Positions 27,115-49,805 of a stretch of 64,000 nucleotides of DNA are shown one piece after another (position 1 is the stretch's first letter; each line of letters opens with the position of its first letter). Position numbers and translations under genes: made by a program. Origin of the DNA: Bacillota bacterium (GTDB lineage Bacteria > Bacillota > Clostridia > Oscillospirales > Oscillospiraceae); contig JAETOJ010000006.1 of NCBI GenBank assembly GCA_021768085.1, positions 1 through 64,000 on the forward strand. The letters run 5' to 3'. The notes below the pieces were generated by a model. That model saw only the letters and a program-made list of their open reading frames with translations. It searched no databases and had not been told where the DNA came from.

Positions 27115-27131
27115 GGGATGGGGGCAGGGTT

Positions 27132-27744
27132 CGCCCTGCCGGGGGCGTTCCTTTCTGCTCGTGCAGAAAGGAACCGAAAGACACGCTTAGGGGGTGGCCA
27201 CCGGTTCGACTCCGGGCCGAAGGGCGGCCCTGCGCTCACAGGATGGCCACCCCCTAAGAACCCCCTTTTTACGGGGGCTGTCAGATCGAGGGGTGGGTGG
27301 ATACCCTTCCGGCGCGGAGCGAGTACGGACGCAGATCCACCTCTTGCCGCTGCCGCTGAATGGTGTGGGTACTGAAGAATGGGTGGGATCCATGGACAGT
27401 GCGCCTAAAAATCTGGTGGTGCCCACCGCGGCGGCAATCGGGCGCGTTCCTGCACCATGGTAGTTAGCCCGAGAAATTCAGGCGTTTCAAAGAGAACCCC
27501 GCGTCATCAGTGCCTGAGAAACGCAGGCCCGGTGTGGGCCGGAAATCAAAGGGAAATCCGTTCGTAAACAGCACAAGCCGGTCACTCTCCCACCGCGCCC
27601 AAATCGGCGTGCCCTTGACCTTAACGGGGGTTCTTAGGGGGTGGCCGACTAAGGACGCGAAGCGTCCGCCGGAGGTCTCCCCCTAAGCGCGCTCTTTGGT
27701 TACTTTCTCTCGCGCGAGAGAAAGTAACGCCCCCCGCAGGGGCC
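27132..27744 (+). repeat. 615-bp non-coding element, copy 1
   Basis: About 613 bp with no plausible gene. The ends are inverted repeats of about 65 bp, each holding an outer hairpin (CTTTCTGCTCGTGCAGAAAG left, CTTTCTCTCGCGCGAGAGAAAG right) and an inner hairpin CTTAGGGGG...CCCCCTAAG with a variable loop. The core (27263-27634) starts at AACCCCC and ends at GGGGGTT. It aligns with copy 2 at 49189-49805 over its length, with scattered substitutions. AGTGCGCC (27398-27405) can pair with GGCGCGTT (27441-27448). No known RNA family or IS is recognised. Confidence 0.85.
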
Positions 27745-27782
27745 CCCCGAGGGTGGCAATCCTCAGAAAGGAGTCCTACAGG

Positions 27783-48031: not shown

Positions 48032-48802
48032 CTATTTCTTCGCGGCGATAGGGTTCTTGGTGAGAAATTCTTTCGCCAGAGCCACATAGGCGTCCGTCCC
48101 CCGGGAGAGGGGGTCGTACACCGTGACAGGCACCCCGTGGCTGGGGGCCTCGGACAGACGGACGTTCCGCGGAATCACCGAGGCGTACACCTTGCCGGGG
48201 AGGTGCCGCTTGACCTCCTCCGCCACTTGGAGGGACAGGTTGGTGCGTCCATCGTACATGGTCAGCACCACTCCTTCCAACTCCAGGGCGGGGTTGAGCC
48301 GCTGCTTGGCCAGCCGGACGGTATACATCAAATCGCTCAGCCCCTCCAGGGCATAGTACTCGCACTGTACCGGCACCAGCAGGGTGTCGGCGGCGCACAG
48401 CCCATCCAGAGTCAGCAGTTCCAGGGAGGGGGGGCAGTCGATAAACAGGAAGTCGTAGCGATCCTTGATCTCCTCCAGCGCGTCCCGCAGCCGGAACTCC
48501 CGCCGATCCAGTCCAATGAGTTCCACCGTGGCCCCAGACAGGGCCTTATTAGAGGGAACCACGTCCGCCCACTTGGTGGGTACAATGGCCTTGGAGATGG
48601 GGACGCCCCCCAAGATCACGTCATAGACGCTGGGGGAGCGGGTTTTGTCCAGCCCGAAGCCGGAGGTGGCGTTGCCCTGGGGGTCGAAGTCGCACACCAG
48701 CACCCGTGCGCCCTGGGCAGTGAGGGCGGCGGCCAGATTGACGCAGGACGTGGTTTTACCCACGCCGCCCTTTTGGTTGACAACGGCAATACTTTTGCCC
48801 AT
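48032..48802 (-). CDS. parA: Chromosome partitioning ATPase ParA/Soj
   Basis: A 256-aa deviant Walker ATPase: VVNQKGGVGKTT at about 7-18, CDFDPQGNATSGFG, and FLFIDCPPSLELLT. It works with ParB-parS for origin segregation and DnaA control. Start at 48802 begins the conserved MGKSIAVVNQKGG, with AGGGGGA upstream. parB follows after 19 bp. Confidence 0.96.
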   Translation of the reverse strand: MGKSIAVVNQKGGVGKTTSCVNLAAALTAQGARVLVCDFDPQGNATSGFGLDKTRSPSVYDVILGGVPISKAIVPTKWADVVPSNKALSGATVELIGLDRREFRLRDALEEIKDRYDFLFIDCPPSLELLTLDGLCAADTLLVPVQCEYYALEGLSDLMYTVRLAKQRLNPALELEGVVLTMYDGRTNLSLQVAEEVKRHLPGKVYASVIPRNVRLSEAPSHGVPVTVYDPLSRGTDAYVALAKEFLTKNPIAAKK

Positions 48803-48858
48803 AGGAGAATCCCCCTTTTTGCTGCGAACGCGCACCGCGGCGCGTCTGGGCCACCAGA

Positions 48859-48874
48859 TGTTTCACGTGAAACA
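48859..48874 (+). promoter_or_regulatory. parS site 3 (perfect)
   Basis: TGTTTCACGTGAAACA, a full 16-bp palindrome, 57 bp upstream of parA. About 90 bp further right is a hairpin CCCCACAAAAGCG/CGCTTTTGCGGGG (about 48949-48980). Confidence 0.95.
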
Positions 48875-49188
48875 ACGTTGGGGCGAAGTCCACATTGTTC
48901 CGCATTCGGCCCTGCCGAAAGCTCCACACACTCCCTCGCCCCTCCGCTCCCCACAAAAGCGGAAAGACGCTTTTGCGGGGATCCTGGGCGCCCGCTGTGC
49001 CCGCGTTGGCGGGTAAAATTCATTATATCCTGTTTGACGGTTGATTGCAACTGTTTGGGGAAAAAAGATGGGGTGGGGTTCCTTCTGTGAACCCCCTGCG
49101 GGGGCGGGCAGTCACACCGGTCGGGTGTGACATGGAGGCCGGTTGCCCCCAGGCCCCTGAGCCCCAAGGGGAAGGGGTGGTGGGGCTG

Positions 49189-49805
49189 CGCCCTGCCGGG
49201 GGCGTTCCTTTCTGCTCGTGCAGAAAGGAACCGAAAGACACGCTTAGGGAGTGGCCTCCGGCGGACGCTTCGCGTCCTTAGTCGGCCTCCCCCTAAGAAC
49301 CCCCTTTTTACGGGGGCTGTCAGATCGGAGAATGGGTGGATACCTTTCCGGCGCGGTGGTGATACGGACGCAGATCCCCCTCTCGCCGCTGCCGCTGAAT
49401 GGTGTGGGTACTGAGAAATGGGTGGGATCCATGGACAGCGCGCCTGGAGGTCGTGTGGTGCCTGCCGCGGTGGCCTTCGGGCGCGCTCCTGGAACATATG
49501 GCAGTTAGCCTGAGAAATTCAGGCGTTCAAAATAGAACCCCGCATTCTCAGTGCCCGAGAAAGGCAGGCCCGGTGTGGGCCGGAAAACGAAGGGAAATCC
49601 GTTCGTAACCCGCAAAAGCCGGTCACTCCCCCACCGCGCTAAAAACGGCGTGCCCTTGACTTTAACGGGGGTTCTTAGGGGGTAAGCCGCCTGTGAGCGA
49701 GGGAGCGCCCTTTGCTCCCGAAGTCGAACCGGCGGCTTACCCCCTAAGCGCGCTCTTTGGTTACTTTCTCTCGCGAGAGAGAAAGTAACGCCCCCGGCAG
49801 GGGCT
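49189..49805 (+). repeat. 615-bp non-coding element, copy 2
   Basis: Second copy, same core orientation as 27132-27744. Outer hairpins CTTTCTGCTCGTGCAGAAAG (left) and CTTTCTCTCGCGAGAGAGAAAG (right) are kept, and the core (49300-49678) again begins AACCCCC and ends GGGGGTT. The inner hairpin loops are swapped relative to copy 1. AGCGCGCC (49437-49444) pairs fully with GGCGCGCT (49480-49487), where copy 1 has two wobble pairs. Region 48803-49188 and the flanks hold no gene. Confidence 0.85.

Follow-up and report, generated by a model that had tools for sequence, protein, structure and literature searches.

A family of modular DNA elements with mirror-patterned hairpin ends in a Bacillota bacterium and its relatives

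The window, a stretch of 64,000 nucleotides analysed here as a whole, contains two copies of a non-coding repeat (copy 1, 27132-27744; copy 2, 49189-49805), which are 82% identical over their whole length in a sequence comparison within their own genome and 86% identical in their shared core. Both are located on contig C64 of this 2.94 Mb genome, which is assembled in 110 contigs. According to gene names that we assigned on Pfam matches, the neighbours of copy 1 are dnaA, dnaN, recF, a RemA-like gene (remB), gyrB and gyrA, and those of copy 2 are parB and a sigma-70-type gene. A previous sequence-only reading had described two copies with outer hairpins, inner CTTAGGGGG hairpins and a common core, all of which are present at the places it gave (Table 1). 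It had also seen no protein-coding gene inside the copies, and the ORFs there are indeed short or mechanical; a 293-aa ORF (48616-49497) overlapping copy 2 had no Pfam match in a scan limited to this ORF. Taken as a whole, that observation held for the repeats and hairpins and failed for the count of two copies, the single core and the covariation.

Table 1. Positions of the two window copies and their parts (window numbering)
Feature	Position	Strand	Remarks
Copy 1	27130..27745	.	between recF (ORF end 27114) and remB-like gene; absent from orthologous G044 site
Copy 1 left outer hairpin, type C'	27147..27174	+	GTTCCTTTCTGC-TCGT-GCAGAAAGGAAC
Copy 1 left linker	27175..27185	+	CGAAAGACACG; AAAGAC within mirrors the hairpin arm
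Copy 1 left inner hairpin	27186..27258	+	CTTAGGGGG...CCCCCTAAG
Copy 1 left terminal module (model R1)	27259..27428	+	blocks TTCCGGCGC, GCTGCCGC, GCGCC
Copy 1 right terminal module	27451..27634	-	reverse-complement relative of left module
Copy 1 right inner hairpin	27633..27687	-	
Copy 1 right linker	27688..27698	-	CAAAGAGCGCG (reverse strand), mirror AAAGAG
Copy 1 right outer hairpin, type A	27699..27728	-	13-bp stem
Copy 2	49189..49805	.	upstream of sigma-70-type gene
Copy 2 left outer hairpin, type C'	49204..49231	+	
Copy 2 left inner hairpin	49243..49297	+	
Copy 2 left terminal module	49298..49467	+	
Copy 2 right terminal module	49514..49673	-	
Copy 2 right inner hairpin	49674..49748	-	
Copy 2 right outer hairpin, type A	49760..49789	-	

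The element is not limited to these two copies. The own genome contains 48 matching pieces, which we grouped into about 16 places, 10 of them with both ends: six short copies (two in the window and two cut by contig ends), four longer ones and six partial ones. This is a lower bound, because several partial copies sit at contig ends. Contigs C1, C34, C60 and C103 of G000 terminate within element copies, and the assembly therefore hides some copies. A pattern of linker plus inner hairpin gave 88 exact matches in 14 of the 42 genomes of the genus (reversed control, 0), all of which were fetched except two, on contigs C76 and C92 of G055; an exact 24-base version of the pattern matched 11 stretches across the contig database, all in metagenome-assembled records. 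Judged by eye, the 88 matches include 17 convergent pairs with spacings of 0.5-1.4 kb, after which the next larger spacing of this kind is about 19.5 kb. The 60 regions fetched from genomes of the genus, together with 13 from the own genome, yielded 40 elements with both ends in eight genomes of one genus, with lengths of 0.5-1.45 kb. No paper on these elements was found among the matches listed in the open-licence PubMed Central literature.

From the outside inward, each end consists of a G+C-rich stem (sometimes absent), the outer hairpin, a linker, the inner hairpin (CTTAGGGGG...CCCCCTAAG with variable content between) and a conserved block of ~150 bp, in which TTCCGGCGC, GCTGCCGC and GCGCC are largely invariant across 55 aligned modules (55 of 57 references, leaving aside L112 and the second module of L159). 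The outer stem is perfect over at least 9 bp in 109 of the 112 ends located by linker and inner motif. Profiles of the left and right halves of the core match each other in reverse complement, and the element is therefore an inverted pair of terminal modules; the core cannot be taken as one unit, as had been assumed, since its halves are inverted relatives. Solo modules also exist, some adjoining gene ends and some at matching sites of different species with different hairpin types (e.g., L147 and L156). Within the family, model R1 gave matches in 13 of 300 genomes, those of G000 and G007 being strong and those of the other 11 weaker; loci were read from its matches in G007, G019, G090 and G327, with G011 and seven genomes of a single weak match omitted. 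Members of two other genera of the family, G090 (L267, L280) and G327 (L268), display the same plan with other hairpin sequences, and at L268 a chain of small G+C-rich hairpins lies outside the element end. A further repeat (CGCCTTCGGCTCGGTCGGCGCTGG... or close) abuts several element ends, in the flanks of L062, L066, L067 and L116, indicating that repeats lie inside or beside one another.

Counted from the A-run of the arm, the linker repeats the 3′ arm of the outer hairpin in mirror image, as in the arm...linker pairs GAGAAAG...CAAAGAG, GGGAAAAG...CAAAAGG, GCAGAAAG...CAAAGAC and AAAGAAAAAG...CAAAAAGAAA. Arm and linker change together across 18 hairpin types from three genera, taken from this genus and from diverged relatives that model R1 had located. 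We chose the set ourselves, merging sequence types and adding D, E, L267L, L268R, L269L and L269R from loci inspected by eye. Over these 18 types the summed common prefix is 99 versus a permuted mean of 69.7, and none of 100,000 permutations reached 99; the letters beyond the A-run amount to 27 versus 10.8 when permuted (0 of 100,000); the control, a direct copy without mirroring, gave 14 versus 14.2. Related hairpin types are not independent, which is answered in part by a test with 10 collapsed types (57 versus 40.0 permuted; 2 of 200,000 permutations). The A-runs of arm and linker are of equal length in 15 of the 18 types, the unequal ones being L284L, L284i and L267R, and the mirror is limited to the A-run in F, both L280 ends and L267L.

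The mirror pattern also locates the ends. A scan that required hairpins of 10 bp or more together with a mirrored stretch no shorter than 6, thresholds that were set after the ends were known, gave exactly four matches in the 64 kb window, every one of them an end of the two elements, and zero matches in each of 20 Markov sequences. Applied with the same post hoc thresholds to 392,720 bases of G000 and G044, it gave 39 matches (34 at element ends and 5 elsewhere), and 34 of the 37 profile-located ends carried the motif. Poly-pyrimidine-type hairpins at L229:13382-13409, L234:15134-15165 and L243:7069-7096 obey the mirror rule without the CTTAGGGGG inner hairpin and look like stand-alone triplex-type repeats.

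Judged from its letters, a linker that mirrors an arm marks a potential intrastrand triplex, which is a motif of a known kind. As a matter of criterion comparison only, some of the hairpin loops exceed the 1-6 nt limit of ITxF if extra stem pairs are counted as loop. The mirrored stretch is all purine in 13 of the 18 types, as a purine-motif third strand requires, and this speaks against the view that the mirror rule by itself, with no triplex, arises from a DNA-binding protein reading arm and linker. However, in the remaining five types the stretch holds a pyrimidine, which departs from the canonical triads of the purine motif and, like the types mirrored in the A-run alone, counts against a triplex; such a protein is therefore a reading to be kept, although we hold it to be on the unlikely side; the joint occurrence of hairpin type and linker type would suit it, whereas no protein candidate is known. 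It would be compatible with the explanation of the elements that we prefer below.

Comparison between genomes indicates where the elements sit and how their contents vary. The remB gene was found in 41 of the 42 genomes of the genus and 30 loci were obtained as sequence, with the recF-remB gap measured in 29 of them. By the end profile, an element occupies the recF-remB site in five of the 30 loci (G000, G002, G054, G055 and G042), and element sites that are empty in related genomes also occur. The orthologous site of copy 1 in G044 is empty, in a pattern compatible with a deletion scar; GCAGGG occurs on both sides when copy 1 is set against this empty site, the one site examined closely, an arrangement that a deletion scar would produce as well. 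A target-site duplication could not be demonstrated, the close look being confined to the copy 1 site versus G044. At the recF-remB site of G002 (L196), the motif of the recF 3′ end occurs twice next to the element, at a distance of ~210 bp, which looks like a duplication of the gene end.

Seven element sites common to G000 and G044 were compared. At four of them both copies match a paralogue in the same genome better than the orthologue, and at the other three, all with cargo, the orthologue is closest. The flanking blocks are mostly about 87-98% identical, and the bodies and hairpin types differ; one common site carries XRE+RHH cargo in G000 and XRE+DUF6809 cargo in G044, and there both ends as well as the flanks can be aligned. 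Copies at different sites of G017 are up to 97% identical to each other versus 75-83% to part of the window core, and amplified subfamilies exist in both G017 and G044. This fits amplification within lineages plus replacement in place. Several element sites are common to different species, which counts against demonstrating present-day transposition.

Small genes lie between the modules in 16 of the 40 elements, according to our reading of the ORF list, and in neither window copy; cargo also occurs in some one-ended copies. The usual cargo is a divergent pair of an XRE-type protein (HTH_3) and a partner, which in Pfam scans of representatives was RHH_1/CopG-type, DUF6809 or of no assigned family (three DUF6809 partners were scanned, one scoring below the Pfam cut-off). 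Two of the 16 cargo elements, L067 and L115, contain partner-type genes without an XRE gene. Defence or toxin-antitoxin cargo was considered and rejected, as the HTH and RHH proteins gave only sub-cutoff or general similarity in NCBIfam and PADLOC. For one DUF6809 cargo protein, searches of phages, plasmids and viral contigs gave nothing.

No transposase was seen among the ORFs of the 40 elements, which were inspected by eye and partly scanned. A longer autonomous version was looked for as convergent exact ends 1.4-10 kb apart, and none was found by eye among the 88 matches of the 42 genomes, a search that might overlook a diverged parent. The Y1 transposase domain PF01797 (Y1_Tnp) is absent from G044, G017, G054, G055 and G002, all of which have elements; in G000 only a piece with a stop was found, and matches occur in G007 and, weakly, in G020, both with elements. 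Several of the genomes in this search are incomplete. Mobilisation of the RAYT/IS200 type was rejected since the presence of PF01797 does not track the elements, and so was a phage or plasmid origin, copy 1 having no match in phages or plasmids. The elements are read as non-autonomous and mobile-type because no transposase was seen, nothing was found between distant ends, Y1_Tnp is absent from five genomes and no phage or plasmid match was obtained.

Combined with the above analysis, the window copies probably belong, as members without cargo, to a lineage-specific family of DNA elements that are modular, non-autonomous and of mobile type. The inverted terminal modules, the linker mirroring the arm, the optional regulator cargo and the near-identical copies at different sites are directly seen, and so is the fact that hairpin types, bodies and, once, cargo differ at sites common to two species. 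The ends could act as folded single-stranded DNA, with the hairpin and a third strand forming an intrastrand triplex; the folded ends may be recognised by an enzyme encoded elsewhere, and recombination between dispersed copies would cause the exchange in place. More tentatively, and with considerable doubt, the mirror covariation might be taken as evolutionary evidence for a selected three-stranded fold of one DNA strand, serving as the end signal of a transposition or cassette-exchange system that shuffles regulator pairs among fixed sites. As arm and third strand change together and the motif lies at defined element ends, the role and the reader of the third strand become testable. Through such elements, gut bacteria may also swap small regulator genes at fixed positions.

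Common sites with changed contents, as well as solo modules beside gene ends, would also be expected of chromosomal structural repeats (terminator-, boundary- or nucleoid-type, like REP/BIME) that are not mobile now, are spread and homogenised by gene conversion and receive cargo by recombination. Small regulator genes within inverted ends look more like a mobile element, however, and the amplified subfamilies in G017 and G044 and the sites that are empty in related genomes likewise argue against this alternative, which we consider rather unlikely.

The sequence-only reading had interpreted the core as a structured RNA. Its repeated, non-coding, hairpin-bearing inverted-repeat element stands, whereas the RNA core is unsupported so far. 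That no known RNA family is involved was borne out, with no Rfam match at gathering score in the window, two sub-threshold matches of copy 1 at E<=1 and no match in 20 further loci. The quoted helix, in which AGTGCGCC/GGCGCGTT becomes AGCGCGCC/GGCGCGCT, is present in the two window copies but fails over the 17 aligned copies (20 matches minus L120, L132 and the spurious L069:263), where 89.0% of cells pair versus 88.9% in shuffles and one cell is changed on both sides versus 3.2 in shuffles. The consensus fold of the 55 modules is poor, having 10 pairs of which one covaries; 21 single-sequence folds did not agree, and a mutual-information scan was dominated by lineage structure. On the one hand, the invariant blocks TTCCGGCGC, GCTGCCGC and GCGCCT in 55 modules, a single column pair rich in compensatory states (the scan was uncorrected) and strong folding would suit a functional RNA with the repeats as its spreading vehicle, and none of 60 column shuffles folded as well in five of eight group-and-strand tests. 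On the other hand, this result was obtained on both strands, copy 1 folds about equally well on both (z -8.55 and -8.33), and there was no signal in the group to which the window copies belong (24 and 30 of 60 shuffles folded as well). With the named helix lacking covariation, the core divided into two inverted relatives, longer relatives holding genes mid-element and the clearest structural signal sitting at the ends, a functional RNA core is improbable.

Among known systems, MITEs are short and multicopy, with inverted ends and no transposase gene, and PIT elements are intrastrand triplex motifs. The short copies described here resemble MITEs in being multicopy and non-coding with inverted ends, and the window copies have no transposase gene; unlike MITEs, the family has hairpin ends, regulator genes in several members and differing contents at common sites, and neither a target duplication nor a parent transposon was found. 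With the REP/BIME repeats of RAYT systems (PMC2817692), they have in common palindromic units that occur in inverted pairs and singly, an intergenic location and non-autonomy. They differ from RAYT-mobilised REP/BIME in that PF01797 is absent from five element-bearing genomes, and their units of about 270 bp are far longer than REPs.

The intrastrand triplex motifs reported in bacteria by Holder et al. 2015 (PMC4666352) are chiefly the G/C-rich TM_ECO of ~36 nt, which the authors link to local genome variation and around which, they state, mobility functions were never found. TM_ECO and the ends described here have in common a pyrimidine arm, a loop, a purine arm, a short spacer and a mirror-image purine third strand, and both are intergenic, with some in inverted pairs. 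Unlike TM_ECO (PMC4666352), the ends in our case are A/T-rich and of many sequences, with arm and third strand co-changing, and the motif bounds defined elements, in which hairpins are nested, modules are conserved and gene cargo is sometimes present.
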